Positions 360 to 14,839 of a DNA stretch of 16,901 bases are shown here, in pieces. Position 1 is the first letter of the stretch, and the number at the start of each line of letters is the position of its first letter. Under the pieces are notes generated by a model that was given only the letters and a program-made list of their open reading frames with translations, did not search any database and was not told the origin of the DNA. The stretch is from an uncultured Prevotella sp. (lineage in GTDB: Bacteria; Bacteroidota; Bacteroidia; Bacteroidales; Bacteroidaceae). The translations under genes were made by a program, and so were the position numbers. Where the stretch lies: contig CAMYZK010000016.1 of assembly GCA_947303825.1 (NCBI GenBank), forward strand, positions 1 to 16,901, read 5' to 3'.

Positions 360-989
360 ATGAGAACAATAACCCCATTAATTGCCCTGGCCGTTATGAC
401 GGCAGTGGCTTGTAGCGACGGCAAGACACAGTCTGCTGGCGGCAACGGCGAGAAACCCACGGGACTGGCTGTCGACGAGAAAAACTTTCCTGATGTCGCC
501 TTCCGTAGCGCCATCCTGGCTACTGATGCTGGTGAAGACGGAATACTTACCCATGAGGAGCTTACAGACTTCTCACTGCTTGATGTTAGTGACAAGGGTG
601 TCACCAGTCTGGCCGGGATAGAGCATTTCCCCTTTCTCTTTTTCGTAAATGCCAGTCGAAACCCTATCCAGCAGATAGACTTGAGCAAGAACAGTACCCT
701 TACCGAGTTGTATTGTACAGACTGCCCCAAGCTTACCTCTCTCACGTTGGGCGAGCAGCCTCGTCTGGAGATGCTTAACTGTAGCCGTACCAACGTTGAC
801 AGTCTTGACGTGACGCAGTGTCCCAGTCTGGTGTCGCTATACTGCTACGACACTCCCATCGCAGGCATAGACCTCAGTGCCTGTCCGGCTCTGAAGGCAA
901 TTTGCTGCGACCCGTTGCTAATGCAGGCACTAGACCTCACTGCATGCCTGGATGTGAAGTTTGTCGATGAATCGGGAAGTGAGATATGA
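360..989 (+). CDS. Lipoprotein with EF-hand-like loop and cysteine-rich leucine-rich repeats
   Basis: The 209-residue protein begins with a lipoprotein signal peptide. The lipobox is V-A-C with the lipidated Cys at residue 18, so the protein should be membrane-anchored and possibly surface-exposed. Residues 56-67 form a near-canonical 12-residue EF-hand loop (D56, D60, G61, E67; position 3 is Gly), likely a calcium site. From about residue 72 onward there are short LRRs of about 21 residues with two cysteine ladders: C119/C141/C162/C183 in the L-x-C position and C154/C175/C196 in the second position. F-P-D-x-x-F-R, EF-loop, LRR is a recurring domain order in secreted Bacteroidota and Firmicutes proteins. 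The ATG at 360 gives a clean signal peptide. The exact function is unknown; a binding or adhesion role is inferred from LRRs in general. The gene converges with tamL, with 8 bases between stops. No TAnnTTTG promoter was found in the 100 bases upstream. Confidence 0.8.
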   Translation: MRTITPLIALAVMTAVACSDGKTQSAGGNGEKPTGLAVDEKNFPDVAFRSAILATDAGEDGILTHEELTDFSLLDVSDKGVTSLAGIEHFPFLFFVNASRNPIQQIDLSKNSTLTELYCTDCPKLTSLTLGEQPRLEMLNCSRTNVDSLDVTQCPSLVSLYCYDTPIAGIDLSACPALKAICCDPLLMQALDLTACLDVKFVDESGSEI

Positions 990-997
990 GGATGCTC

Positions 998-3523
998 TCA
1001 GAACGGATAGCCTATGGCGATGTGCAGGGTGTGCATGTCGCTGAAGCGACTTATGTTGAAGTAGCCGCTCTTGCCGGTGTCATAGGGCAGGTGCAGGCCG
1101 AATCCCCAGTCGAGGCGCAGCACTAGGAACTGCAGGTCCATGCGCAGGCCGGCTCCGGTGCCCAGTGCCAGCTGGCGAGGCAGGTTCTTGAGGCGTAGCC
1201 TGTTGTTGCCGAAGAGAGCGTTCCACGCGGTGACGAACTCCTGGACATCCTCAATGTCTGTTTCTCCTTCTAAGCCTTCAATGCTCAGTGTCCAGTCTTC
1301 CGAGCTCCATACGTTTCCTGCATCGAGGAACAGGGCTCCGTGCAGGTTTCCGAAGAGGCGGCGGCGCAGTTCAAGGTTTACCACCAGCTTGGTGTTGCCG
1401 TTCTGCATGAGGTAACCCCACTTCCTGCCTTCTGCCTTACCTGCAAAGGCCTGCATGCCTATAAAGGCTCCGGGACCTATGCTTCGCACGGGGAAGGCAC
1501 GTATGCTGTTGGCACCTCCCACGTAGAAGTTTTCGCTGAAGGGTGCTTCCGACGAGTTGCCGTATATCCACATCTGCCCCAGGCTGGCATGGGCAACCAG
1601 TTTGGTGCGCTGGCTGAGGGTCCATGTCTTCGTGATGTCGGCCTCCAGCTTGACAAACTGCGAGTATGGGTTTTTGAAGAAGGTCTTGTCCTGCTGTTTC
1701 CAGCTGTTGCCCTGTATAGCCACATCGTAGAGTGCCATGATGTTGCCCGACTCCTGTACTGTAAGCTCCATGTGTAGGGGGTGGCGGTATGCGGGTGGTG
1801 AGGCGTAGCTGTAGGTGTATCGCATCTTGGGTATGAAGAAGTTGCTCATGGCGGTGGCCAGATAGGGATTTTCCAACAGCAGGCTGTCGAATAGCAGTGT
1901 GTGGCTGTTCTGGAACTGATATTTCAGCGTGAGCGGTGACAGCTCATGTCTTATGACAGGGCGACGGGTCTCGTCGCTCTTGTTCATCGGCGATGTTGCG
2001 GGCTGCCAACGGTATGTCCACTCACCGCTTGCCAAGTGCATCTTGTAGTATCCGGGATGGCGGTCTACGTCAGTAGAAAGCTTGGCGGTAGTCGTTGTGT
2101 TTGTCCATCGTCGGGGGCGTCGCCTGCTGCCTTGCTGCATGGTCTGTCGGCTCCGGCTTGTTTTTCTGAAACGTGGGAACAGCCTCCGGGGGAACTCCAC
2201 CGACATGTCAAGACCGTACTGATAGGAGTCCATGTCAGAGCCTTGACTGTTGGTCTGCCATTCGTATGCACCATGCAGGTTGATGTCAAGTTTCTCCCCT
2301 CCCCGGAAGGCATTGCGACGGGTGAGGCCTATCTTCACTTCAGGCCCCAGGCGTCCGATGGTGCGGTTGACGAAGTTGGTCTCTACATAGAAGTCGTATG
2401 GCTTGTCGAAGATGCAGTCTAGCATGAGGTCGAGCGTATCGTTGTCACGGGGTGTAAACTTGAAGTCCACCGAGCTGAAGACTCCTGTGGCGTTCACCTT
2501 CTGCATGGACTCCTGATAGTCGGAGTAGCTGAACAGCCGGTTGGGCAATAGCTTCATGTTCTTGAGGATTGTCCGTACGTTCATGGGCGGTCGCTTGCCG
2601 CCAAACATCACCTTGAGGAACCTCAGCGTCATGGTGCTGTCGGTGCGTTCCATTATGTTCTTGCGCAATCTCAGGCTGGTAGTGCCTATGTACCAGGGCC
2701 TTAGGGCTTGTGGCTGTAGCGAGTCGGCCATTTGCAGTCGCAGCTGTACGTGGTAGGGTTTGACAAAGGTGTCGGCAAGGAAGGTGGCGTAGGCAGGTGA
2801 GTAGTAATAGTAGCCGTTGTTGCGGAAGAGGGTGCTCAGGCGGGTGCGCTCGGCATCGAGGTTGCCCACGCTGAAAGGTGTGCCCCGCTTCAACGTGGCC
2901 TCGGCCTTTGTGGAGTCGATGAGCTGCTGCATGTGAGCGGGAAATCCCACATACTCCATACTGTCTATCCTGAACAGCGAGTCCATGCGCACGGTGTAGG
3001 CTATCTTAGCCTTCTTCGGGCTTTCTTCTATAATACCTTCATCGGTCTGACGCGTCTTTCCTTTCTTCATTACTTCCCTGTAGGTTACGTCACCGTGTAG
3101 GTACCCATTGGTGCGCAGCACCTGCCTTGCCACCTGTGCCCTCAGTGCAGGATTAACCTGACTCATCAGCACCGGTGACTTGCCGAAGGTGTGGTTCATC
3201 CACTTGCCGAACTTTGTCTTCGCGTTGACGGTGGCATTCCATACCCACAGCCTGTAGGGGAAGGGCGTGCGGTAGTGGCTGGAGCCGAACAGAGCCCCGT
3301 TAGGTGCAGTGGCAAGGGCAGCCTCCAGCTCCTCCTGAGTGGTCAGCGAGTGGCTGTTCTTCTCAAAGTCGGGGTAGCTGGTCTTGGCCAGCCCTATGAA
3401 AAGCTGGTCGCCTTCGGGTATGTGGCTTGTGGTGGAACAGGCACACAGCACCAAGAGGAGCGTCAGTATCCTTGACACACGTATCACGTACCTATATATC
3501 TTATTGCTGTTTGCCTTCATCAT
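998..3523 (-). CDS. tamL: TamL: BamA/TamA-family (Omp85) outer-membrane lipoprotein
   Basis: The 841-residue protein is the Bacteroidota lipoprotein form of the TamA/BamA family, which inserts or assembles outer-membrane proteins and works with TamB. The signal peptide ends at L-C-A-C (lipid Cys 29), followed by S-T-T-S-H-I-P-E-G, typical of TamL. Residues about 40-375 are POTRA-like periplasmic repeats and about 376-841 are the 16-strand barrel region. The conserved Omp85 loop is seen as V-G-G-A-N-S-I-R-A-F (668-677), where I-R-A-F replaces the usual VRGF. The last residue is Phe (G-Y-P-F), a standard outer-membrane assembly signal. Two ATGs lie in tandem at the start (3523 and 3520), so one residue of ambiguity remains. 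No clear Shine-Dalgarno is visible. Only 3 bases separate it from the tamB stop, so the two genes are almost certainly co-transcribed and probably translationally coupled. An arginine-rich turn at 446-472 is unusual. Confidence 0.9.
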   Translation of the reverse strand: MMKANSNKIYRYVIRVSRILTLLLVLCACSTTSHIPEGDQLFIGLAKTSYPDFEKNSHSLTTQEELEAALATAPNGALFGSSHYRTPFPYRLWVWNATVNAKTKFGKWMNHTFGKSPVLMSQVNPALRAQVARQVLRTNGYLHGDVTYREVMKKGKTRQTDEGIIEESPKKAKIAYTVRMDSLFRIDSMEYVGFPAHMQQLIDSTKAEATLKRGTPFSVGNLDAERTRLSTLFRNNGYYYYSPAYATFLADTFVKPYHVQLRLQMADSLQPQALRPWYIGTTSLRLRKNIMERTDSTMTLRFLKVMFGGKRPPMNVRTILKNMKLLPNRLFSYSDYQESMQKVNATGVFSSVDFKFTPRDNDTLDLMLDCIFDKPYDFYVETNFVNRTIGRLGPEVKIGLTRRNAFRGGEKLDINLHGAYEWQTNSQGSDMDSYQYGLDMSVEFPRRLFPRFRKTSRSRQTMQQGSRRRPRRWTNTTTTAKLSTDVDRHPGYYKMHLASGEWTYRWQPATSPMNKSDETRRPVIRHELSPLTLKYQFQNSHTLLFDSLLLENPYLATAMSNFFIPKMRYTYSYASPPAYRHPLHMELTVQESGNIMALYDVAIQGNSWKQQDKTFFKNPYSQFVKLEADITKTWTLSQRTKLVAHASLGQMWIYGNSSEAPFSENFYVGGANSIRAFPVRSIGPGAFIGMQAFAGKAEGRKWGYLMQNGNTKLVVNLELRRRLFGNLHGALFLDAGNVWSSEDWTLSIEGLEGETDIEDVQEFVTAWNALFGNNRLRLKNLPRQLALGTGAGLRMDLQFLVLRLDWGFGLHLPYDTGKSGYFNISRFSDMHTLHIAIGYPF

Positions 3524-3526
3524 TCT

Positions 3527-6500
3527 TTATTGCTTTTCATTGGCCTTTACTGAGTCTTGAGGGATGTCGCGCACTGGTGTCACCCCTTCCGGGCTGTCCT
3601 CTCTCCTTCGGCTATTGATAATAGGCTGCTGTGGCTTTCGGAAGAGGTCGAAAAGGCTGTCTAGCTTACGTTTCCATATATATCCTCCGCCATACTCTCC
3701 AGTGTAGCCTTCCAGCCAGTCGTACACATTCTGGTTGTAGAACAGCTTGAGATACTGGTTGCTGGTAGGCGAGAGCCGGTATTCCATGCTCACGTTGTCG
3801 AAGAACGACTGCTGCTGTCCCTGCATCTCGCTGCCAGTAGACACCTTGCCGCCTATCTGTACGTTGAGGCGGTTGTTCCAGAAGCGCTTGGCAAACTTGA
3901 ACGAGTAGTCGGTCCGGGTCTGGCCCGACGCGTCGGTAGAGTTGTCGAATCCCAGCTGCAGGTCTACTGTCTTCAGTGCACCGGCCGTAATGTTGTTTAT
4001 CTCGTTTTGCAGGAAGGAGCTGAGGGCAGAGTTCATGGAGAAGGCGTTGGTGTTACCGTCGGAGAGGTACATACCTGTGGTGAGCATAGTGACGGCCAGC
4101 TTGCCTCTTTGCTCTGTGCTCATGGCATTCAGCTCGTTTTGTATCTGCATGTCTTCGGGTGCGGAGATGGTGAATTCGAGTCCCATGTTGCTCAGTGTGC
4201 GTGTTATCTCCACTCCGCACTCAAAAGTCACGTTGCGGTTCTGCTCGCCGTCGGAGCTGACGCTGGCTCGGTTTTCCTCTGTGGCGGTGATGTTGAGTGT
4301 TGGGTTGTCGGGCTGACCTGTAAACTCCACGTAGCTGCCCTCCTTGATGGTGAATGTCTTGAGTGGAATGATGGGCAGCGAGTACTTCATGGTGCCGTGC
4401 TCCACGGTGTACCTTCCCAGCAGGCTCATGCCGTTGGCATCCATGAGCAGGCGCAGGTCTCCGCCACCCTGCAGGTTGACGTAGTTGGTCTGTTCGGTGT
4501 TGAGTGCACATCTCAGGTGTGCTCCGTGGTCTATGCTTATGTTCATGTCCACGTTTAGGAAGTCGGTTTCGGGGTTCTCCCTGACAATGCTTGTGCTGTC
4601 GCTGAAGTCAACGAACTGCACCAGCTCGTCCATCTGGCTATCGGTAGACAGTGGGGAGTCAAGCAGGATGTAGTTAAGGTCGGTGGTGCCCAGCACGTCG
4701 AGTCTGCCTCGCAGTGACAGCTGTTGCATGTTTCCGCTGAGGATGGCGATGATGTTTACGAAGGCCTTTCCGTAGGCCACCGATTCCCGTGTCTGCTTGG
4801 CATTGATGAGCTGGAAGTCCTTGGCTCTCACAACGAGGCGTATAGACTGTTTGTCTTCTCCATAGAGGTCAATGTTTCCGTTTATGGTGAGCGGATTCTT
4901 GCCGTATGAGTAGAGTTCAAACTTGTTGAGCTGTAGCACGGAATTGGTGATGGTAATAGGCTGTTGGCCAAACTTCATCCTCACTCCGTATGGCTTGCTC
5001 ACAAAGTATCCGTCGGCAAAGTTGATGGTGCCGTTGGCTTGCAGCTTGCCTACAGGCCCTGCCACCGACAGTGTTCCGCTTGCCGTTCCTTCAAATCCGA
5101 ATAGCTGCTCTCCCATGAATGCGTTGGCAATAGACAGTGGCAGCCTTGTCAGTTCCATTGTTCCCTTGAGTGTCTTTTCACTTGTATAGCTGCCTTTCAG
5201 CGTGCCTATCTCTTCGTCGTCGAGCAGCAGGGTGGCATCTACCACGTGGGTGTCGTCTTCTTTCCAGAGGTAGACGAACTCTGCGCCAATGTTTCCTATC
5301 TCGCTGCCTTCGTAGGTCAGTTTCTTAACGCTCATGTCGCTGGCCACCGAGATGTTGTGTTGCTGGTCCATGATGAGGTGATAGTCGCCATTGAGCACTC
5401 CTGTAACCTTTGGCAGCAGGGCAATGTTGCTGGTAAGGCTACCCAGGTCCAGCTTGCTCACACTCACCGTGATGTCTTGCAGCGGCTGTTCTTCCAGGCC
5501 CCAGCTGTCATTGTTGTTCTCGGTATAGATTAGTATTTGTGTGCCGTCGTCGGCTTTCAGGTCGATGTTTGCCTCTATCCTATTGTTGTCGTGCAGCAGC
5601 AGGTAGTTGTCATCGTTGAGGGTAAACTCCTTGTATCCCAGCGTGGGACGTGAGGGTACCAGCTGGAACCGTATTCCGCTGGTTTCCTCGCCATCGCCGT
5701 TGGAAGGTATCGTTGCCATTTCTGCCTTGGCACCCAGGCGCACGTTGAGCAACCCTTTTTCGTCGAAATATCTCAGGCCTATCATGGCACCATATTCGCG
5801 CAGCTGACCGTCGTAGAGCAGGCGGAAGGCTCCCATGGGGTTCTTCTTTGAGTTTGTTACCCTGCCGTTGAAGCTCAGCTTCTCTCCCCTGTCTTCCAGG
5901 TTGAGTGCTATGGTGTCTAGTCGGGTATCGCCGCTGGTGAGAGCGAGTAGGACGGCTTTTCCGTTGAGGCCTGTCAGTGGCGAGGCATAAAGGTCTACGT
6001 CCATGTAGTCAAAGCCGATGCCCATGGAGTTGTATAGCATGTCGGCAATAGGGTTGGCTTTGCCGCTCTTGCTCTGTATGGTGACATGGGCAGTAGGCAG
6101 CATTTGCTTCAGCCGTGGCTGGTCTATGGTGTGGCTCTTGAGCTGTGATGACAGAGTGTCGGCCATCTGTCCCATCGTGGCAAACAGTTGCTCGTAGTCT
6201 CCCTTGGCATTGATGCTGGCACTGAAGTCGCCTGTCACCATCCTTGCCATGGTGGTGTCGCGGCTGGTGGCCAGCCTGAGGTACACGTCGTCAAGCCGTC
6301 GTGTCGTCACGCTGTCGCGAATGTATATGCTCGTAATGTCTCCTGCCAGCGAGTGCGTAAGGTTCATGTCGCTGCCTATGTCGAGCGATCCTCTCAAACC
6401 CACGGCCATCGGACTGTCTGTGAATCCCAGTGCGTACAGGTCGACAAGTGCAAGGTCGGTGTTTACCTTAGCTGCAAAGGTGTTCTTATTGCTGTTTCCT

Positions 6501-8260
6501 GACAGCTGTGCCTCCAGCAGTATGCTCCCGTTTACCAGTTGGTTGGCACTTGATGCGCTAAGCATGGCCATGCCGTCGCTCAGGTTAATGTTTGCGTCTA
6601 TGCTGTCGAGCTGCCACCTGTCGTAGGCTATGTTGTGTAGCTTTACTTGGGCGTCTATCTTTGTCTTCCTGTCGAACGGGTCTACACCCTGGCCCTTCAT
6701 CTTCACGTTGGCCGTTATCGTGCCAATGTCTCCGCCTGGCATGTATTGGCGCAAGTCAATGTTGCGCATCGCTATGTCGGCATCGTAGCTCATGGCGGCC
6801 ATGTTGCCTGTCGGTACGTTTGCACTGGCTTTCAGCGTGGCTGTTCCCCTGCCGGCGTGGAGTGCCAGCGATGTGGTGTACTTATTGCCGTTGGCCGACA
6901 TGTTGCCTGCCAGGTGCGTGCCGGCTGGCACACGGTAGCTGGAAGGTAGTCCGAGACGGTGGAGTAGGGGAGTGAGCTGGCCGTAGGCATCTGCCTCCAG
7001 CTTGACTTGGGCCATGAGCCTTTCCATGTCGCCTATGTTGGCTATGTGGCCGCTGCCTTTCAGCTGAAACGCAGTGGGCAGCATGACACTCAGCTGGTTA
7101 ATGTCCAGGCTGCTCAGCGTGCCGCTGGCTGTAGCCCTCATCGTCAGCTGACGGTCAGGCCATGCTGTCTTGGGCAGCTGTGGTGCCAGCAGCATGAGGT
7201 CTTCCTTGCCCACCTCGGCTGTCAGCTCTATCCTGTTCTGAGCGGCGTCTTCGGCTTTGTTGGGAGGGACTGTGGCCATGTCGGCAAAGGCCATGTCGAT
7301 CTGTGCCTGCAGTGCCGATTGGGGCGTTCTGGCAGCAAAGTCGTAGAGCATCAGCCTCTCACCGTTCATGGACAGCCGTCCTTGCAGCGATGCCAGCTGC
7401 AGGCCGCCATGGGGCGTGGCCGGTGTGATGATGCGTGCCGCGCTGCCCTGGCGTATGGCCACGTTCATGCTGTCCTTGTAAGAGAAGATGGAGTCGATGC
7501 CCAGCGTCAGTCCGCTTAGGCATATATCGTTGCCGTAGAGCAGCTCGCCTTCCTGCCAGTCCAAAGCTCCTATGCCGTAGCGTCCCAGACCCAGGTGTAT
7601 GTCGCCTTCTTTGAGGCTGGCCTGTCCCATGAAGGCACTGATACGTGTGGCAGAGTCGGCAAAGACTGCAGCCGAGTCGATGACAATGCTGATGCGTGAG
7701 CGCTCCAGCTCAAAGCGGTCGAAGGCGATGTGCCAGCCTATTGTGGAGGTGTCGATGGCAGCCGTGTCGCTCATAAACACGGTGAGGTTGCTGTCCTGCA
7801 GCCTGGGGTGCGCCAGCCGCACATCCATCTTTGCAAGGTTTATCCCTGGTGATGAGAACGACAGCTCGCCAATAGTGCCCTTGAGTCTCATGTCGTCTAT
7901 AAAGCTCTTGGTGTTCAGCTTGGCATCGCCCAGCAGCAGGCCGTTTATTACCACCTGCCCCTTTAGCAGAGGGAGCAGCCTTATGTCGGCCACAGCTTGT
8001 CCTATGTCGGCAATGGTGTCGCCCTGCTCTATCACCAGTACGCCGTCCACTTGCAGGTCTAGCGGGAAACGCAGCCTCACGCGGTCTACGCTGATTTCCA
8101 TGCCAGTCTCGCTAGAAGCGTAGCTGGCAACACGCTGCACCACCCAGTTCTGTACAGCGGGTATGTATAGCAGCGACAGCAGTACCACAAACAGCACTAC
8201 GGGACTGAGTAGTGCCACCATCGCCCATCTCAGACTTTTTTTTATGAAGACTTTAGACAC
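3527..8260 (-). CDS. tamB: TamB: translocation and assembly module protein (AsmA-like/DUF490)
   Basis: This is a giant AsmA-like protein of about 1577 residues. It has one N-terminal transmembrane segment (residues about 12-33 from the GTG start), preceded by K-K-S-L-R, and then a long beta-rich periplasmic domain. The motif I-P-A-V-Q-N-W-V-V directly after the membrane segment and a C-terminal TamB (DUF490) domain over about the last 400 residues support the call. TamB bridges the inner and outer membranes and works with TamA/TamL in outer-membrane protein assembly; the family is also linked to lipid transport. The frame stays open back to a TTG at 8296. However, the -7-like element TATCTTTG (8285-8278) falls inside that extension, so I choose GTG at 8260, which gives M-S-K-V-F-I-K-K. 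ATG at 8221 would lose the basic residues before the membrane helix. tamL follows after 3 bases. Length fits the family. Confidence 0.9.
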   Translation of the reverse strand: MSKVFIKKSLRWAMVALLSPVVLFVVLLSLLYIPAVQNWVVQRVASYASSETGMEISVDRVRLRFPLDLQVDGVLVIEQGDTIADIGQAVADIRLLPLLKGQVVINGLLLGDAKLNTKSFIDDMRLKGTIGELSFSSPGINLAKMDVRLAHPRLQDSNLTVFMSDTAAIDTSTIGWHIAFDRFELERSRISIVIDSAAVFADSATRISAFMGQASLKEGDIHLGLGRYGIGALDWQEGELLYGNDICLSGLTLGIDSIFSYKDSMNVAIRQGSAARIITPATPHGGLQLASLQGRLSMNGERLMLYDFAARTPQSALQAQIDMAFADMATVPPNKAEDAAQNRIELTAEVGKEDLMLLAPQLPKTAWPDRQLTMRATASGTLSSLDINQLSVMLPTAFQLKGSGHIANIGDMERLMAQVKLEADAYGQLTPLLHRLGLPSSYRVPAGTHLAGNMSANGNKYTTSLALHAGRGTATLKASANVPTGNMAAMSYDADIAMRNIDLRQYMPGGDIGTITANVKMKGQGVDPFDRKTKIDAQVKLHNIAYDRWQLDSIDANINLSDGMAMLSASSANQLVNGSILLEAQLSGNSNKNTFAAKVNTDLALVDLYALGFTDSPMAVGLRGSLDIGSDMNLTHSLAGDITSIYIRDSVTTRRLDDVYLRLATSRDTTMARMVTGDFSASINAKGDYEQLFATMGQMADTLSSQLKSHTIDQPRLKQMLPTAHVTIQSKSGKANPIADMLYNSMGIGFDYMDVDLYASPLTGLNGKAVLLALTSGDTRLDTIALNLEDRGEKLSFNGRVTNSKKNPMGAFRLLYDGQLREYGAMIGLRYFDEKGLLNVRLGAKAEMATIPSNGDGEETSGIRFQLVPSRPTLGYKEFTLNDDNYLLLHDNNRIEANIDLKADDGTQILIYTENNNDSWGLEEQPLQDITVSVSKLDLGSLTSNIALLPKVTGVLNGDYHLIMDQQHNISVASDMSVKKLTYEGSEIGNIGAEFVYLWKEDDTHVVDATLLLDDEEIGTLKGSYTSEKTLKGTMELTRLPLSIANAFMGEQLFGFEGTASGTLSVAGPVGKLQANGTINFADGYFVSKPYGVRMKFGQQPITITNSVLQLNKFELYSYGKNPLTINGNIDLYGEDKQSIRLVVRAKDFQLINAKQTRESVAYGKAFVNIIAILSGNMQQLSLRGRLDVLGTTDLNYILLDSPLSTDSQMDELVQFVDFSDSTSIVRENPETDFLNVDMNISIDHGAHLRCALNTEQTNYVNLQGGGDLRLLMDANGMSLLGRYTVEHGTMKYSLPIIPLKTFTIKEGSYVEFTGQPDNPTLNITATEENRASVSSDGEQNRNVTFECGVEITRTLSNMGLEFTISAPEDMQIQNELNAMSTEQRGKLAVTMLTTGMYLSDGNTNAFSMNSALSSFLQNEINNITAGALKTVDLQLGFDNSTDASGQTRTDYSFKFAKRFWNNRLNVQIGGKVSTGSEMQGQQQSFFDNVSMEYRLSPTSNQYLKLFYNQNVYDWLEGYTGEYGGGYIWKRKLDSLFDLFRKPQQPIINSRRREDSPEGVTPVRDIPQDSVKANEKQ

Positions 8261-8277
8261 CTTCGCAAAATTTCTGG

Positions 8278-8285
8278 CAAAGATA
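8278..8285 (-). promoter_or_regulatory. Putative -7 element of the tamB-tamL promoter
   Basis: On the minus strand the sequence reads TATCTTTG followed by CC, a perfect match to the Bacteroidota primary-sigma -7 consensus TAnnTTTG. No good TTTG lies 19-21 bases upstream, so the -33 half is weak. The expected transcript start is around 8270-8274, giving a short leader of about a dozen bases to the GTG at 8260. It suggests tamB-tamL has its own promoter rather than depending only on read-through from the fimbrial operon. Confidence 0.55.
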
Positions 8286-8308
8286 CAAAATTTCAACTAA
8301 CTGAGCGT

Positions 8309-8363: not shown

Positions 8364-10253
8364 CTACTCTCCTTCGCTGACTGTTACGTCGGAGTAGGAG
8401 TTTGGATAGTTGTCACGCAAGATGTCGGGGGTGATGACACTGTTGCCGATGCCGTTGATGCCGGTTATGGTGAGCTTGTAGAAGTTGTTCCTCAAGAGTG
8501 CGTAGCGCATGGGAGCCATTGGGTCTGTAGTGGTGTGACGGTGCTCTATCCAGTAGGTGTAGTAGGTCTCATAGACTCCCATGTTGAACTTGCTCTGCTT
8601 GATGCCATAGTTCTTGAGTTGTGCGTCGGTATATGTCTCCAGCTCGTCAAGCTGTAGCCCGCTCACTATGTTTATGGCTTGTATAGAGCCATAGAAATAA
8701 TACCGGTACAGGTAGATGGTGCCTGGCCAGTACTCTGGTCGGTATTCCTCTCTGAGCGTTTTCTGTGAGGCATCGTAGAGGTATACAAAGGTGGGGTTGA
8801 CGGCGGCCTTGAAGACTATTCCCGGTGAGTAGCCGTTTTTCTGGCTGTCCTTGTAGGCTGTGTTCTCCAGCACGTATGCAAAGCCGTGGTTGTTGGCGGA
8901 AGGCATTGATGCGAAGTTGCTGGTGTTGAAGTCTCCAAACCATGACTGGTAGTGGTTGGCGAAGAGCGAGGCGGCAGCTTTGTCGGGTGTCTTCTTGTAG
9001 AAGAGGGGGTCTACCACGTACTGGTCGCCCAGCTCATTGTACTCACTGTAGTGATATGGTAGTGAGAAGGTGGGCTGCTGTGTGAGTTGTGGCAGGCTGT
9101 CTCTGTGCTGGAAGAGATAGTACTGGCGGTTCAAGTTCACCAGCTTGTAGTTGGTGATGTTGATGTCGGCATATTTCCTTCCGTTATGCAGCAGCTGGAA
9201 GGTGTTCTCGGCCACTCCAATCTGCAGCTTTGCCATGACACGTTCCATTTCCATAGTGAGCACATAGTCCTTGTTGGCCCAGGGTGTAAGGTCTACTGCC
9301 AGCAGTGCCGTGGCCCGGCTGGTCATCACAGGTCCGTTGTCGGGAATGTTTGCCTCTATGCCTCCCTTGTAGGTGGTGCTGTCTATCATGTCGAGCAGTT
9401 GGGACTCTTCTTCTATGCTGTCGGGGCAGTAGTCGTAGTTGGCTATGGCAAAGATGTCGTAGATGCCCGTCTTTAGCTCCACGGTCTCGTAGAGGTAGGT
9501 AATGTCGTACTGGGTGTCGTAAGTGTCGTCTATCTGTGTCAGTTCTTTTATTGTGGCTTTGGTGAATAGTTGTTTTGTGTGGGCATCGAAGAAAAAGAGG
9601 TCTAGATGGCTTATGGTGTACTCGTTGTGGAAGTAGTACTCGTCGATGGCACCGCTGTTGGCCGGTACTTTGAGCATGAGTGACATGCGTACCCGGTTGT
9701 CTGCATCGGCAACATCTCCTGCCGCCTGCCGTAGCAGGCTGTCAAGGGTTTCGTAGTCGGCAATGGGCGAGTCGTCGAAGGTGGCAAGCACTGTGCCGTT
9801 GCTGTCTATGACGTATGTTCGAGGTATGATGCTGGTTGCAAACTTATAGTAGAGGTTTCTGTCGCTGGGTATGTAAAATGGCATGGTGAAGCCATGCTTG
9901 TTCCAGTAGTCCAGAACGTCTTCCCTTGTCTGGCTGCGTGGCACATTAACGATAGGTACTGTCTGATGGTATTTGTCGTATATCCTTTGTAGCACGGGCA
10001 TGAGCTGCTGGCAGTCGGGGCAGCGGGTGTCGAAGAAGTTGAGTATGTAGCATTGTCCTTCCAGCGACAATGACGACAGTTGTTTTCCGTCAGGGCCTAA
10101 AAGGTCGAAGTAGGGTGTCGTGTCGCCTACTTTCACCAGTGATGCGGTACCTGCCGTCTCTTCACTGTCTTCGCGGCATGCCGTTATCAATACAGTGAAG
10201 ATAAACAGTGAGAGCTGTATCAGTATGCTGACCTTATGTGTTTTGCTTGTCAC
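8364..10253 (-). CDS. Thioredoxin-fimbrillin fusion lipoprotein (TlpA-like N-domain, Mfa1-like C-domain)
   Basis: This 629-residue lipoprotein has a signal peptide ending I-T-A-C (lipid Cys 26). Residues about 38-178 form a TlpA/ResA-like thioredoxin fold: D-T-R-C-P-D-C with C78/C81 as the redox pair, and I-P-R-T-Y-V-I-D with a likely cis-Pro at 144. Residues about 186-610 align along their length with the Mfa1-type fimbrillin encoded two genes upstream. Shared landmarks include Y-D-I-F-A-I-A-N (265-272), I-D-S-T-T-Y (290-295), V-V-D-P-L-F-Y-K-K-T (413-422), Q-K-N-G-Y-S-P-G (471-478) and Y-Y-T-Y-W-I (564-569). The protein ends in V-T-V-S-E-G-E and lacks the C-terminal donor-strand segment of its relative. 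It also lacks a cleavable Arg in the A-strand loop. The start is GTG, 2 bases after the Mfa2 stop; no in-frame ATG would keep the signal peptide. It is the last gene of the operon. A redox-active accessory or tip-like subunit is an inference. Confidence 0.85.
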   Translation of the reverse strand: MTSKTHKVSILIQLSLFIFTVLITACREDSEETAGTASLVKVGDTTPYFDLLGPDGKQLSSLSLEGQCYILNFFDTRCPDCQQLMPVLQRIYDKYHQTVPIVNVPRSQTREDVLDYWNKHGFTMPFYIPSDRNLYYKFATSIIPRTYVIDSNGTVLATFDDSPIADYETLDSLLRQAAGDVADADNRVRMSLMLKVPANSGAIDEYYFHNEYTISHLDLFFFDAHTKQLFTKATIKELTQIDDTYDTQYDITYLYETVELKTGIYDIFAIANYDYCPDSIEEESQLLDMIDSTTYKGGIEANIPDNGPVMTSRATALLAVDLTPWANKDYVLTMEMERVMAKLQIGVAENTFQLLHNGRKYADINITNYKLVNLNRQYYLFQHRDSLPQLTQQPTFSLPYHYSEYNELGDQYVVDPLFYKKTPDKAAASLFANHYQSWFGDFNTSNFASMPSANNHGFAYVLENTAYKDSQKNGYSPGIVFKAAVNPTFVYLYDASQKTLREEYRPEYWPGTIYLYRYYFYGSIQAINIVSGLQLDELETYTDAQLKNYGIKQSKFNMGVYETYYTYWIEHRHTTTDPMAPMRYALLRNNFYKLTITGINGIGNSVITPDILRDNYPNSYSDVTVSEGE

Positions 10254-10255
10254 GC

Positions 10256-11254
10256 CTATAGCTTTAAGTGGTTGTATGCCCGGAGCCTCCAGCTGTTAAC
10301 CTGCATCTGTATGAGCTGGTCGAGGTCGCTAGAGAGATAGAAGATAATGGTATAGAAGTCTTGGCGGTCAAGATATTCCTGTACAGACAGAGGCTCACCT
10401 AGGTTGGTATACAGCGAGCCTATCATGGCTATGTACTCGGGCAGTGAAATGTTGAACACTATCTCGGCCGTGCTCTTCTTCTCGAGTATTATGCGGCAGT
10501 CGGTGTCTTCCATGAGCCTCATGGTCATAATGTTGAACTGCAGGCCGTGGAGGGTGCCGTAGTCGGCATCGTCGAAGGTGACGTGGTTCATGCTGAAGGG
10601 CTCGTAGGTGGTGGCCGTCTCGGTAGCCAGTCGGCAGTATGCGTCTACAGTGCCGTTGGCAGTCACCACTTTCAGGGTGTAGTCGTCTGGGTTCATGGTG
10701 CTGTTGTCGGTGACGGGCACCACCAGGCAAGCCAGCTGGTTGGTAATCTTTGTGAGCTGTATGTCATAGGTGGCATACGAGTCATCGTAGTGTACTGCGG
10801 GCAGGCTGCCATAGAACACAGGCGGCAGCTGGGCAGAGCATGTGGCTGCAGGAGAAGCCAGCGAGAGGCGGAAGTCGTCGCGGGTCTGTGTGTCGCCGGC
10901 CACGGCATACGGGCTGTTGCCAATGCCGCTCCACACCACGAACTGATAGTTGCCCTCAGGCAGCCCTTCCACGCGGATGCGATAGTTGCCTGCTGTGAGT
11001 GCTTCCTGGGTGATGTATAGCCGCTTTACGAAGTTGCCCTCTGTGTCATAGATATAGACGTAGGCATCGGCAACGTGTCTCTGTGCTGCCTCCACATCAA
11101 GAATGTTGTATGTGTAGTGCAGGTTGAGCCAGAACCCGTAGGGGCAGTCGTCGTTGTCGTCCTTCACCCATGTGCAGGCTGTCATTGCCATGCAGAGCAG
11201 GGCAGAGAGGAGCAGCTTCAGAGCACGATGTTGGTAAGGTCTCTTACAATCCAT
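10256..11254 (-). CDS. FimB/Mfa2-family fimbrial anchor lipoprotein
   Basis: This 332-residue protein matches the FimB/Mfa2 family, whose members anchor type V fimbriae in the outer membrane and limit fimbrial length. The signal peptide ends M-T-A-C (lipid Cys 27), followed by W-V-K-D-D and the family-typical D-D-C-P-Y-G-F-W (Cys 37). Y-V-Y-I-Y-D and V-E-G-L-P-E-G-N-Y-Q-F-V-V-W (95-108) form the first transthyretin-like domain. E-Y-L-D-R-Q-D-F-Y-T-I-I-F-Y-L (293-307) and N-S-W-R-L-R (320-325) close the second. The ATG at 11254 lies inside the 3' end of the upstream fimbrillin gene, overlapping it by 37 bases. A downstream start would destroy the signal peptide, so the overlap is probably real and suggests translational coupling of stalk and anchor. 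C139, C176, C207 and C253 are additional mature-protein cysteines. Confidence 0.9.
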   Translation of the reverse strand: MDCKRPYQHRALKLLLSALLCMAMTACTWVKDDNDDCPYGFWLNLHYTYNILDVEAAQRHVADAYVYIYDTEGNFVKRLYITQEALTAGNYRIRVEGLPEGNYQFVVWSGIGNSPYAVAGDTQTRDDFRLSLASPAATCSAQLPPVFYGSLPAVHYDDSYATYDIQLTKITNQLACLVVPVTDNSTMNPDDYTLKVVTANGTVDAYCRLATETATTYEPFSMNHVTFDDADYGTLHGLQFNIMTMRLMEDTDCRIILEKKSTAEIVFNISLPEYIAMIGSLYTNLGEPLSVQEYLDRQDFYTIIFYLSSDLDQLIQMQVNSWRLRAYNHLKL

Positions 11255-12723
11255 GGTTTGACGTTTAGAACCACCTTCAGATAAGTTTCTCCCTCATCGG
11301 GCGTGTCGGGGTTGACGTATGGCTCCTGGTATCCCAGTCCCGACACGTTGGCGATGATCATGCGGTAGAGGTTGTTTCTCACTATGCCGAACTCCATCAT
11401 TCCCATGCTGGTGGCCTTGTAGTTGTCCAGGTGGCGAATCCAGTAGGTGTAGTAGCAGCGGTAGCCGTCGTCGCCCTTTTCAAACTTGCGTGCCTGGTAG
11501 AAGCTCAGGTTGGCTTCGCTGACGGTACTGACGCCGATGGCAGCTGCCAGTGCCTCGGCCGAGTTGTAGAACTTGTAGTTGTAGTAGTAGAGCACTTCTG
11601 GATAGCTGTTCTTGTCGGTCACCAGCTCCAGGCTGCCGTCGGATGCAAGGCGGTACACATTGTTGTTGGGTTCCATCTTTGCCTTGAAGATGACGCCGGT
11701 GGAATATCCGTTCTTCTGTGCGGGTGCCAGCGAACAGTTCTCCAGACAGTAGACAGTGTTGTATTGCGGCGTGGCTGCCACAGGCTTGAACGATGTCCAG
11801 TTTACGGCATTTGGATTGCTGTAGTCGCCGAAGAAGTGCTCATAGTACTTGTCGGCATTGGTGAATGCTGATGCGTCGATGGTCTTCTTGAAGAAATAGG
11901 GGTCGATGACGTATCCGTTGACGTCGTTCACATTGCCGAAATGCTCGTTGATGTTCCAGTTGGGTTCGTCCATTGAGGTGACAACGGCGGTATGGCGGTA
12001 AGAATAGTAGTACTTGGCCAGGTTGACGATGTAGTGGCCGTCAAGGGTGACGGTGGCATATTGCAGGCCGTTGGCATCGGTGAGCTGGAAAGACTCTGCT
12101 CCCTTGGCAATGTCTATGCGTGCCAGCACGCGCTCCAGTGACACGGTGATGACATTGTCGCTTTGGTCGGGTTTGTTCTCTATGATGGTTCCGGCTTTTT
12201 CCGATGCACGGTTTGTCATCACTATGCCATTTGAAATATCCTCAATCTGTGCCCTGACATACGTAGTGCTGTCGATGTCGGCCAGGAACTCAGCTTCGGT
12301 TGCCTTTTTTATCTGGCGGTCGGAATTGGCAACGACAAAGATGTCGTATGTTCCCTGCGGTACGGAGATGTGTTCTGTCTCATAGATGACGTTGCCGTTG
12401 GCATCGGTGCCCGAGCGTGTGAGGTTGGTAAGCAGGATGCTCTTGGCAAAGAGCTTGGTGGGGGCATCGAAGAGATACACCCTGGCATTGTTTACCTTGT
12501 ATTCCTCGGCTGTTCCCTGCACGTAGTTGTAGCTGTCTTCTGCACTACTGCGCGTTCCAATGGCAGTAGCGGCATTTGTCTGTAGCTTGAAGACCACGTA
12601 GGCGCAGTCTTCGGCAGCCACTTCCTTGTTGTCGTTCATTTCAATGTCGTCTTGCTGGCTGCACCCGCAGAGAGCGGCACCGGCAACGAGCAGCGCACAG
12701 ATGATTTTGTTAGAATAGACCAT
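11218..12723 (-). CDS. Mfa1-type major fimbrillin
   Basis: This 501-residue protein resembles the Mfa1 family of fimbria major subunits (type V pili). The lipobox is L-C-G-C with lipid Cys at 21. A-strand material is followed by I-G-T-R (Arg 58), a plausible site for the trypsin-like cleavage that activates these pilins, then V-N-N-A-R-V-Y-L-F-D (77-86). The C-terminus is L-N-V-K-P-W-I-V-R-D-L-T-N-I-V-L, the family's donor-strand segment. In the type V model the lipidated precursor reaches the cell surface, the N-terminal strand is cut, and the groove is filled by the C-terminal strand of a neighbour. Cysteines C326 and C330 sit four apart and could form a local disulfide; C40 and C423 are further apart. 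It starts 6 bases after the DUF3868 gene and overlaps the Mfa2-type gene. Stalk function is inferred from the family and operon context. Confidence 0.88.
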   Translation of the reverse strand: MVYSNKIICALLVAGAALCGCSQQDDIEMNDNKEVAAEDCAYVVFKLQTNAATAIGTRSSAEDSYNYVQGTAEEYKVNNARVYLFDAPTKLFAKSILLTNLTRSGTDANGNVIYETEHISVPQGTYDIFVVANSDRQIKKATEAEFLADIDSTTYVRAQIEDISNGIVMTNRASEKAGTIIENKPDQSDNVITVSLERVLARIDIAKGAESFQLTDANGLQYATVTLDGHYIVNLAKYYYSYRHTAVVTSMDEPNWNINEHFGNVNDVNGYVIDPYFFKKTIDASAFTNADKYYEHFFGDYSNPNAVNWTSFKPVAATPQYNTVYCLENCSLAPAQKNGYSTGVIFKAKMEPNNNVYRLASDGSLELVTDKNSYPEVLYYYNYKFYNSAEALAAAIGVSTVSEANLSFYQARKFEKGDDGYRCYYTYWIRHLDNYKATSMGMMEFGIVRNNLYRMIIANVSGLGYQEPYVNPDTPDEGETYLKVVLNVKPWIVRDLTNIVL

Positions 12724-12729
12724 AGTTCG

Positions 12730-14247
12730 TTATTTTTTTTGATTTATATTTTTCAGTTTCTCAAACTCCTTCAGCTGGGCATCGGCCTGCTGCACCCCTT
12801 TCCGGCTCGCCTCCTGTACCAGCTGGATGGCTTTTGCCGTGTCGCCCTTGAGGTAAGCCACAAGACCTTCGTTCATGGTCTTCTCTGCACTGTCGTTCAC
12901 CTTACCCAGGTGTTCGGCAGCTTCGTCGGCATTGCCTCTCTTTATGGCCAAGTAGGCCATGGTGAGGTTAATATACGAGTCGTTGGGATAGAGTGTGTAT
13001 GCCTTGCGTATGATGGAGTAGTATTTGTCTTCATTGCCGGCATACTTGTCGGCCAGGCGGTATATCTCGTTAAGGTTGAGGTTGATGGGGCGTGTCTCAA
13101 ACACCCGTTCCGACTCCTCCAGGGTGAAGGGTCTTACCGTGTAGATAACGGTGTAGTTGGTGCAGCGTAACGACGGGAAACCGTCTTTCAGCACGTAGGC
13201 AAATCCCTCTGCCGCATCCTTACGCATCTGCTTCTCTTTCTCGTCGGGCGAGAGGCTGCTCTGGGCAATGCCTAGCAGGGTGCTGCGCTGCGGTGTCTCG
13301 GTGTGGGTGTTGAGATAAGTCAGGAATCCCTTCCAATTCTCACCCTTGCCGCTGGCCTCTATGCGTATGCCCTTGGCTATGTTGGCCATCTGCAGGTATT
13401 TTCTCAGGGCCTCGGTGCGCTTCTCGCTCAGCATCTTGTTGTGCTCGTAGGGGCCTTCAGGCGAGGCATAGCCTTCGATGGTCATCTTGCGTATGGTGAC
13501 GTCTGAGTCGTTTCTCACCAGGTTGACAGAGTTGTGTATCTTCTGCAGTTCGATAGGGTTGCTCATGTATTCGGGCTTGATGTCCCATTTGTTCACCTCA
13601 AAGCAGAGGTATGCCGAGCCACGCTCCTCACGCACCTTCACCGAGTTGTCGGCAGGTGGCAGCAGATAGACGGGGAAGAGCTTTATCTCTGGTATAGAAT
13701 CCTCCTTGTCGAAGGTGGCCACGGTAATCTCGCCTCTGTCTTTCAGGTTGTTGCATGAACAGTTCTGCTTGCGAAGCTTCAACACGGCATCTGCCATCCA
13801 CGGCTCGTATTTCACTGTGCGCAGATAGTCTATGTCGAGGTTCACTCCCTTCTTCTTGCGCAGGGCTATGGCATCGGGGTATTCCTCGTTCAGGTATCGG
13901 TCGAAGTATATCTGCTGATTGCGGCTGTTGATGAAGATTTGAGGCAGCGTTGTCATGCGACGCGACAGCGTGTCTACCAGCACGGGCGTGAGCACCACCG
14001 ACTGTGTGGCGGGCACGTCTTGTATTGCCGTGAGCTGCATAGACACCACCACGTTGCTGTCTACCACAGCCAGCGCAGAGCGGTTTACGGTCATTACATA
14101 GTCGAAGATGGGTTTGTCGTCATCCCCTTCTCTGTTTCCCTGTGCCCATACGCCGCCAGACAACAGGGTGGCCATTAGCAGCGTCAGCATCCATCTGCCA
14201 TGCAGAGGTGTCCTTTTCCGTGTATGTACATTATTATATATCTTCAT
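12730..14247 (-). CDS. DUF3868/OmpA-like domain protein with C-terminal TPR-like repeats
   Basis: This 505-residue exported protein has a signal peptide with likely cleavage at V-W-A/Q (35/36). Residues about 45-195 are beta-rich and correspond to the DUF3868 region found in many Bacteroidales fimbrial loci. Residues about 210-300 contain an OmpA-like segment with I-E-G-Y-A-S-P-E-G (257-265) and N-x-x-L-S-x-x-R (270-277). The Asp that binds diaminopimelate in classical OmpA (G-Y-T-D) is Ser here (G-Y-A-S), so peptidoglycan binding is uncertain. Residues about 395-495 look like two or three TPR-like helical repeats, which suggests protein-protein contacts. C163 and C165 form a C-x-C. It lies 19 bases after the DUF3575 gene and 6 before the fimbrillin. 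A periplasmic or outer-membrane role in fimbrial assembly is inferred from conserved neighbourhood only. ATG at 14247 is preferred; the Met at residue 20 is an alternative start that also leaves a signal peptide. Confidence 0.8.
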   Translation of the reverse strand: MKIYNNVHTRKRTPLHGRWMLTLLMATLLSGGVWAQGNREGDDDKPIFDYVMTVNRSALAVVDSNVVVSMQLTAIQDVPATQSVVLTPVLVDTLSRRMTTLPQIFINSRNQQIYFDRYLNEEYPDAIALRKKKGVNLDIDYLRTVKYEPWMADAVLKLRKQNCSCNNLKDRGEITVATFDKEDSIPEIKLFPVYLLPPADNSVKVREERGSAYLCFEVNKWDIKPEYMSNPIELQKIHNSVNLVRNDSDVTIRKMTIEGYASPEGPYEHNKMLSEKRTEALRKYLQMANIAKGIRIEASGKGENWKGFLTYLNTHTETPQRSTLLGIAQSSLSPDEKEKQMRKDAAEGFAYVLKDGFPSLRCTNYTVIYTVRPFTLEESERVFETRPINLNLNEIYRLADKYAGNEDKYYSIIRKAYTLYPNDSYINLTMAYLAIKRGNADEAAEHLGKVNDSAEKTMNEGLVAYLKGDTAKAIQLVQEASRKGVQQADAQLKEFEKLKNINQKK

Positions 14248-14266: not shown

Positions 14267-14839
14267 TCAGAAAATATAAATAAGGCTGAAGGCTAGTCTC
14301 GACAGGCCGACATAGTGATATACGTCGTCGTCCTGTAGCTTGCCGCATACCTCACAGTTGAATTTCTTATAGTCGATGTATGTGTATCCCAGTCCGGCCT
14401 CTGCTCCAATGTTCCAGTGCTTGGCCAGTGCATACTCGTATCCGGCACCAATGCCGGCTCCGGCCAGCCATCCCTCGTAGCGATGAGGCTTTAGACCACT
14501 GAGCAAGCCCAGAGGCAAGCTTTTGTTTCCCAAGTTGAACTCGCCAGCGTGAACGTAGGGACCGTAGAAGAACCCGTTCATCACCTGGCACGGCCATATC
14601 CGGTATTGCGCCTGTACCAGCCAGTGCTTGTGCACACTCTGCTCTCCCCTTTTCCAGGGGCGAAGACTGCCGTATGCTTCAAGCGACGTGCTTTTGGAAC
14701 ACGGTATTTCCACACCGGCCGACAGTGCTCCTGCCAAGTCGAACAATACATTGTTGTTGATTGCCAGATGCTGCGCGTGGGAAACAAAACACCCTGTCAG
14801 CAGCAGATAAACGATAAGAGATAATGCTTTCTTAAACAT
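14267..14839 (-). CDS. DUF3575 family outer-membrane beta-barrel protein
   Basis: This 190-residue protein has a signal peptide with likely cleavage at S-H-A/Q (22/23). The mature part is made of alternating beta-strands (N-N-N-V-L-F-D-L-A-G, G-V-E-I-P, A-Y-G-S-L-R-P-W, G-A-G-Y-E-Y-A-L-A-K-H-W-N-I-G-A-E) and ends in aromatic F-S-L-I-Y-I-F, consistent with a small outer-membrane barrel of the DUF3575 family. A C-x-x-C-G motif lies at 162-166, in a loop before the last strand; C47 and C84 are also in the mature part. DUF3575 genes are frequently the first gene of Mfa1/Mfa2 operons in Bacteroidales, and here too it is promoter-proximal. The molecular role is not known. The ATG at 14839 is preceded by AAAGG but has no properly spaced Shine-Dalgarno. 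The leader from the predicted promoter is about 38 bases. Confidence 0.8.
   Translation of the reverse strand: MFKKALSLIVYLLLTGCFVSHAQHLAINNNVLFDLAGALSAGVEIPCSKSTSLEAYGSLRPWKRGEQSVHKHWLVQAQYRIWPCQVMNGFFYGPYVHAGEFNLGNKSLPLGLLSGLKPHRYEGWLAGAGIGAGYEYALAKHWNIGAEAGLGYTYIDYKKFNCEVCGKLQDDDVYHYVGLSRLAFSLIYIF

Follow-up and report, generated by a model that had tools for sequence, protein, structure and literature searches.

To our knowledge, neither a chaperone nor an usher is known for type V pili. In P. gingivalis, no helper proteins have been identified according to the available part of the account by Hall et al. 2018 (PMC5789003), where this is called an enigma. The same part describes proteases that cut at Arg and thereby take off the first strand of the shaft and tip proteins, with the anchor left uncut; the N-terminal extension is removed from Mfa1, Mfa3 and Mfa4, and in Mfa4 cleavage of the loop shifts to other sites once its Arg is lost. 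The C-terminal tail of the shaft protein matters for polymerization, whereas the C-terminal end of Mfa3 is not needed; the identity of the donor strand in type V pili was still debated (PMC5789003).

The window, i.e. the whole stretch of 16,901 nucleotides from an uncultured Prevotella sp. that was analysed here, contains a fimbrial operon in the order DUF3575-OmpA-Mfa1-Mfa2-X, the last gene of which (X) encodes a thioredoxin and a fimbrillin in a single frame:

14267..14839, minus strand: DUF3575 protein, first gene of the fimbrial operon (PF12099, 181.7 bits)
12730..14247, minus strand: OmpA/TPR protein of the fimbrial operon
11218..12723, minus strand: Mfa1-family shaft fimbrillin with the cleavage motif TR-S (R58) and the C-terminal strand LKVVLNVKPWIVRDLTNIVL (NF038041, 228.4 bits)
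10256..11254, minus strand: Mfa2/FimB anchor lipoprotein (Pfam Mfa2, 172.3 bits)
8364..10253, minus strand: X, thioredoxin-fimbrillin fusion gene (629 aa, GTG start, 2 bases past the Mfa2 stop; intact homologues in 15 further genomes)
10176..10253, minus strand: signal peptide and lipobox of X ending at Cys26 (LITA-C), followed by acidic REDSEE
9714..10142, minus strand: thioredoxin domain of X, TlpA/ResA type, residues 38-180
10011..10022, minus strand: active site of X, C78-P-D-C81
9822..9824, minus strand: cis-proline of X, P144
9663..9695, minus strand: first beta strand of the X fimbrillin, residues 187-197, VRMSLMLKVPA (pattern kept in the fusions; strand in the model)
9636..9662, minus strand: loop of X after the first strand, residues 198-206, NSGAIDEYY, without Arg or Lys
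8364..9698, minus strand: fimbrillin domain of X, residues 186-629, without the Mfa1 C-terminal VKPW strand

The combination of lipobox, TlpA/ResA-like thioredoxin (C78-P-D-C81, P144) and Mfa1-family fimbrillin in one open reading frame, as given in a preliminary description of this DNA, was confirmed. The CxxC, the cis-proline and the thioredoxin fold of the TlpA/ResA type are all present in sequence and model; the ResA cut-off (NF002854) was missed with 63.8 bits versus 170. The fimbrillin half passed its family scores, barely for NF038041 (131.3 versus 130) and more clearly for PF15495 (48.2 versus 27) and PF06321 (26.9 versus 21.4). The lipoprotein signal and a first beta strand ahead of the cleavage loop are present as well (in sequence and model only), and the conserved thioredoxin with its intact CxDC is located between the lipobox cysteine and this strand, i.e. 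wholly within the N-terminal extension. X is a two-part lipoprotein encoded in a type V (Mfa1-type) fimbrial operon and probably exposed on the cell surface.

Several other observations were made in the window. The Mfa1 and Mfa2 frames share 37 bases (window 11218-11254); the pattern MD.[KQ]R as an overlap-encoded start is shared by 16 of 21 Mfa2, and the true Mfa2 start may be located further downstream. A TamA/TamB-like pair (window 998-8296) directly follows the operon; since other genes follow X in relatives, the pair probably does not belong to the fimbrial system. A small lipoprotein-like protein with leucine-rich repeats (LRR_4) is encoded convergently to TamA (window 360-989). No match to Rfam was obtained, and the number of sites returned by promoter and terminator scans was not above that of shuffled sequence.

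Homologues were sought in 398 genomes of the genus, in 399 genomes of the family (a set overlapping the former) and in a named collection. The fimbrillin part of X was found in 17 genomes of the genus search, 13 of which carried the thioredoxin in the same frame; the family search added two intact fusions (G761, G578), a broken one (G741) and a split form (G645), and the named collection one fusion (L032) and one thioredoxin-less X (L031). In the 16 genomes with intact fusions, Mfa2 directly precedes X without exception and no variation occurs at C78, D80, C81 and P144; C78 is followed by Pro in 13 of them, by Lys in two and by Ser in one. The dN and dS values of the thioredoxin in three close pairs (0.052/0.268, 0.093/0.602 and 0.155/1.47) correspond to dN/dS ratios of 0.19, 0.15 and 0.11, the fimbrillin half being much alike; judged by these substitution patterns, the thioredoxin domain is under selection to stay enzyme-like. 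The survey of homologues that the preliminary description had called for therefore yielded an invariant CxxC and a conserved position after Mfa2, and neither of the outcomes regarded there as adverse (homologues mostly without the CxxC; an assembly fusion in a single strain) occurred. A fusion created by assembly or sequencing is ruled out by its intact presence in 16 genomes, and a dead thioredoxin by the CxxC in all of them. A search of 295 genomes of the order (E 1e-15) returned no fused homologue beyond the family. Viral relatives were not found either; a plasmid-borne gene was not supported, as no plasmid record covers 80% of the query.

The two halves of X are separable. Four X genes that adjoin Mfa1 and Mfa2 are without thioredoxin (L031, G022, G121 and G137; no DUF3575 or OmpA gene was recognised in G022). 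They lie inside the fused clade and do not constitute one clade (p-AU 1.1e-6; four changes on a tree from which the truncated rows L035 and L108 were left out); because of this scattered distribution, the thioredoxin has probably been lost from X several times, with recombination as the alternative. In G645, the operon reads Mfa1-Mfa2-Trx-X: thioredoxin and X are separate lipoprotein genes with a 14-base overlap, X carries its own lipobox, and a grouping of the thioredoxin with the fused ones was not rejected (p-AU 0.43). This two-gene form suggests that the covalent link is not essential. Conversely, G741 (L108:8093-9770) harbors an orphan fusion with frame-broken fimbrillin half and intact thioredoxin that is not surrounded by a recognised fimbrial operon, and at the same place in G560 (L118:7423-7977) the thioredoxin alone remains (88% identical). 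This locus is situated beside a PAP2-domain gene in the two close species, and two adjacent proteins are 98-99% identical as opposed to 88% for the thioredoxin. An X fimbrillin without N-terminal part was also observed at L035:9196-10527 (G014), with no Mfa2 upstream and an unrelated neighbour (relocated remnant or chimeric contig).

With regard to the type of pilin, the VKPW C-terminal strand is present in 21 of 21 Mfa1 and in none of 23 X (the 16 fusions and seven others, L035 and L108 without N-terminal part among the latter); the C-terminus of each of the 21 Mfa2 is formed by a related [VI][NT][SN]W strand. X accordingly does not have the C-terminal strand of a shaft pilin, and it shows two tip-pilin features, the absence of this strand and a gene position after the anchor. 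A third one, a basic residue (Arg or Lys) in the loop that follows the first strand, is not present in the X of the window: the loop, as read by eye (a script also counted an Arg inside the strand), contains Arg in eight of the 16 fusions, Lys in two and neither in six, including the window X, and TR[SG] follows the first strand in all 20 complete Mfa1. The fold models of the fimbrillin half, based on a six-sequence alignment, were poor (mean pLDDT 53.8 for the whole protein and 50.1 for the fimbrillin alone); the best Foldseek matches of the weak fimbrillin model were Bacteroidia pilins, with the Mfa3 tip protein 5nf4 at the top (E 0.0088). By the processing logic of P. gingivalis, the lack of the Mfa1-type C-terminal strand makes the fimbrillin half look like an end subunit of tip type (Mfa3-like) and not like a shaft pilin. 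Its earlier assignment as a full-length Mfa1-type fimbrillin holds for the family score and not for the shaft-type C-terminal strand, the absence of which supports the terminal-subunit character proposed at the same time.

Concerning the location of the thioredoxin, acidic residues follow the lipobox Cys in all 16 fusions (13 lipoboxes were placed by script, those of L103, L104 and L106 by eye). A surface location of X is likely, because the acidic residues after Cys26 resemble the Bacteroidetes lipoprotein surface export signal, for which K-(D/E)2 and SDDDD have been described (Lauber et al. 2016, PMC5080379, available in part). If X were cleaved like Mfa1, Mfa3 and Mfa4, the thioredoxin may remain on the membrane with the lipid.

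Stand-alone thioredoxin lipoproteins of the X kind are common in the family, and the CxxC was present in all 84 thioredoxin rows examined (74 by pattern, 10 by eye), which came from 85 loci; the fused clade includes nine of the stand-alone thioredoxins (four from the same genus, five from the family). Within 68 stand-alone loci listed by the family search, a DUF3575 fimbrial gene was located within about 7 kb in seven, five of them on the same strand. These seven came from five genera; 0.61 of 68 would be expected by chance, as calculated from the mean DUF3575 density (290 in 151 genomes) with an assumed mean genome size of 2.95 Mb (Poisson P 3.7e-6, ignoring kinship). The set leaves out G645, to which its fimbrillin had drawn attention, and G233; one of the 68 loci (L257) gives no match to the thioredoxin profile. 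No DUF3575 gene was nearby in the other 61 loci, and profiles recognised no fimbrial gene in 60; L119 as an eighth fimbrial-linked locus of OmpA type was rejected, as Pfam assigned TPR repeats and no OmpA domain. A thioredoxin within 1.5 kb was present in none of the best-scoring 30 DUF3575 loci. In G503 (L251:6791-13066) and G551 (L252:1609-7585), the thioredoxin heads a complete operon Trx-DUF3575-OmpA-fimbrillin-Mfa2, and in G233 (L175:393-5705) a CxxC thioredoxin lipoprotein heads Trx-DUF3575-OmpA-fimbrillin up to the contig end. Judged from these gene neighbourhoods, the thioredoxin accompanies type V pili repeatedly but not obligatorily.

Fimbrillin remnants after the nine nearest stand-alone thioredoxins were not found at E 0.05 with trimmed queries among the matches listed (best row per place); the only matches listed came from the untrimmed G112 query that still held the thioredoxin, and a short stretch at the C-terminus of G547 resembling the first fimbrillin strand was too short to count. 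Among 20 neighbour proteins examined, none was shared between the genome surroundings of stand-alone thioredoxins. Three further observations concern DUF3575 genes: that of a fimbrial operon near a thioredoxin gene is apparently split by other frames (L232:4176-6185, G444), DUF3575 and TPR repeats are encoded together in one frame of 542 aa, which runs in the opposite direction to a neighbouring thioredoxin gene (L248:7744-9372, G813), and the single-contig genome G024 of the same genus gave 13 DUF3575 matches, a hint of very many fimbrial loci.

Candidate clients of the thioredoxin are provided by the cysteines of its operon partners: C330 and C423 are conserved in 21 of 21 Mfa1, C37 in 21 and C176 in 20 of 21 Mfa2 (absent from G137), and the OmpA CxC and the DUF3575 CxxC in 18 of 18. 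In P. gingivalis, the Cys54-Cys285 disulfide of Mfa2 is needed for the Mfa1-Mfa2 interaction; according to the available part of the source, Mfa1, Mfa3 and Mfa4 of P. gingivalis are without disulfides, and three related anchors have none where Cys54-Cys285 is located (PMC5789003), so that a disulfide is not a general need of type V pili. Moreover, C37 of the window Mfa2 precedes the first strand and is not positioned in the loop that holds Cys54 of P. gingivalis. The four thioredoxin-less operons keep the Mfa1 and Mfa2 cysteines (except C176 of G137), the DUF3575 cysteines are kept in all three of them in which the gene was found, and the DUF3575 CxxC is present in 30 of 30 fimbrial loci without thioredoxin nearby. 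As the partner cysteines persist without thioredoxin, these thiols do not depend on the X enzyme; a search for co-variation of the two was negative. The Mfa1 and Mfa2 cysteines are available as candidate clients and might possibly be served by the X thioredoxin: the disulfide exchange on other subunits suggested earlier is possible, but it is not reflected in the partner cysteines, which are largely the same in operons without the enzyme.

A role of the X thioredoxin in fimbrial assembly is the best, albeit unproven, reading of these data. The domain likely functions as an oxidoreductase and would be a surface thiol-disulfide enzyme serving fimbrial subunits, to which we assign a probability of roughly 0.4. 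By analogy with P. gingivalis, the fimbrillin half would be a terminal, Mfa3-like tip subunit, whose first strand would fill the subunit's own groove before maturation (following the available part of PMC5789003); once this strand leaves, the groove would accept a strand of Mfa1. After cleavage, the thioredoxin would stay at the cell surface as a lipidated enzyme, and in an uncut X the N-terminal extension would keep the subunit tethered. The enzyme would make or reshuffle disulfides in neighbouring fimbrial proteins, most likely in the Mfa2 anchor (C37/C176) and the Mfa1 shaft (C330/C423), and the fusion would secure the same dose and the same place for both halves. A wider proposal is speculative and rather unlikely: some type V pili might rely on a redox factor dedicated to assembly, namely a thioredoxin tethered to the surface, which would set the anchor or shaft disulfide and so control when the anchor engages the shaft, in three forms (separate gene at the operon head, separate gene between anchor and tip, or propeptide of the tip pilin, the latter providing one enzyme per fibre that is left on the cell at maturation). 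The X thioredoxin would be a concrete candidate helper for type V pilus assembly in some species, and the natural set of fused, split, thioredoxin-less and fimbrillin-less forms allows the role of each half to be compared across species.

Alternatively, the thioredoxin might be a general surface redox enzyme that protects against oxidants or reduces surface or partner proteins, with the fimbrial operon serving mainly for its expression. Such an enzyme would agree with the wide occurrence of stand-alone relatives, mostly beside unrelated genes, with the position of nine of them (from the same genus or family) inside the fused clade and with the orphan locus shared by G741 and G560, where the fimbrillin is broken or gone but the thioredoxin persists; however, the fusion is kept at one operon position in 16 genomes, separate thioredoxin genes occupy two other fimbrial positions, and stand-alone thioredoxins are near fimbrial genes above chance, and we consider this explanation somewhat unlikely. 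The same orphan locus, with its thioredoxin retained after fimbrillin loss, speaks against a thioredoxin fold that acts as a mere spacer or structural N-domain without redox function, as had been considered in the preliminary description. The occurrence of X without thioredoxin on four separate branches indicates that the fimbrillin half can do without the domain; but the CxDC and cis-proline, which never vary among the 16 fusions, the purifying selection seen in three pairs and the CxxC in 84 of 84 other thioredoxins of the X kind point to a redox-competent-looking domain and leave the spacer very improbable.

The idea preferred in the preliminary description, a thioredoxin that is carried at the pilus tip and acts by disulfide exchange on proteins of the host or of partner cells, is in agreement with the tip-type character of the fimbrillin, which is without shaft-type C-terminal strand, with the Mfa3 tip protein as top Foldseek match of the weak model (E 0.0088), and with the six of 16 fusions lacking Arg or Lys in the usual cleavage loop, the halves of which may remain joined. 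Yet the thioredoxin precedes the strand whose departure from the groove is required, being part of the extension cut from known pilins; eight of 16 fusions keep an Arg (the window X does not) and two a Lys at the cut site; and four operons are without thioredoxin, one further operon having it as a separate lipoprotein. A tip-borne thioredoxin is therefore doubtful and, in our estimate, decidedly unlikely.

Compared with the P. gingivalis Mfa1 fimbria (Mfa1-Mfa2-Mfa3-Mfa4-Mfa5; type V), the window agrees in the gene order shaft-anchor-next subunit, in the lipoprotein precursors, in a shaft with Arg cut site and C-terminal strand and in an anchor without cut site (PMC5789003, available part). 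It differs in its third gene, X, which carries the thioredoxin, in the DUF3575 and OmpA genes upstream of Mfa1, and in the absence of Mfa4 and Mfa5 genes after X, TamB being the next gene. Like the mfa3 gene, X follows the anchor gene (PMC8313007, available part); unlike Mfa3, for which the same part of the source describes no enzyme domain, X possesses one, the window X is without a counterpart of the cut-site Arg43, and its C-terminus differs from the long one of Mfa3. Mfa5 is comparable to the presumed tip-type X in that a non-pilin domain is added to a protein of the fimbrial tip complex: Mfa5 of P. gingivalis genotypes A to C contains von Willebrand factor and Ig-like domains (PMC8313007, available part), so that the earlier statement that known accessory subunits are all pilin-fold proteins cannot be upheld. 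In contrast to Mfa5, with its other domain and its C-terminal signal for type IX secretion, X is a lipoprotein. A thioredoxin-fimbrillin fusion was not described in the literature searched (mostly titles, with few subscription journals covered) nor in the available parts of PMC10434189 and PMC4936053; the iron-regulated locus BT2473 to BT2482 of B. thetaiotaomicron encodes a fimbrillin-family protein and a "thiol oxidoreductase" in separate genes beside cytochrome c biogenesis genes (PMC10434189) and looks like a different system. Unlike X, the TlpA/ResA-type structures, among them those of the exposed lipoprotein Etrx2 of S. pneumoniae (2yp6, 4hqz) and of SdbA (5um7), are chains of 135-145 residues with no pilin domain joined. 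What is new in comparison to these systems is a real and conserved type V fimbrillin, of tip type and probably located at the cell surface, whose propeptide-like N-terminal extension is a thioredoxin.
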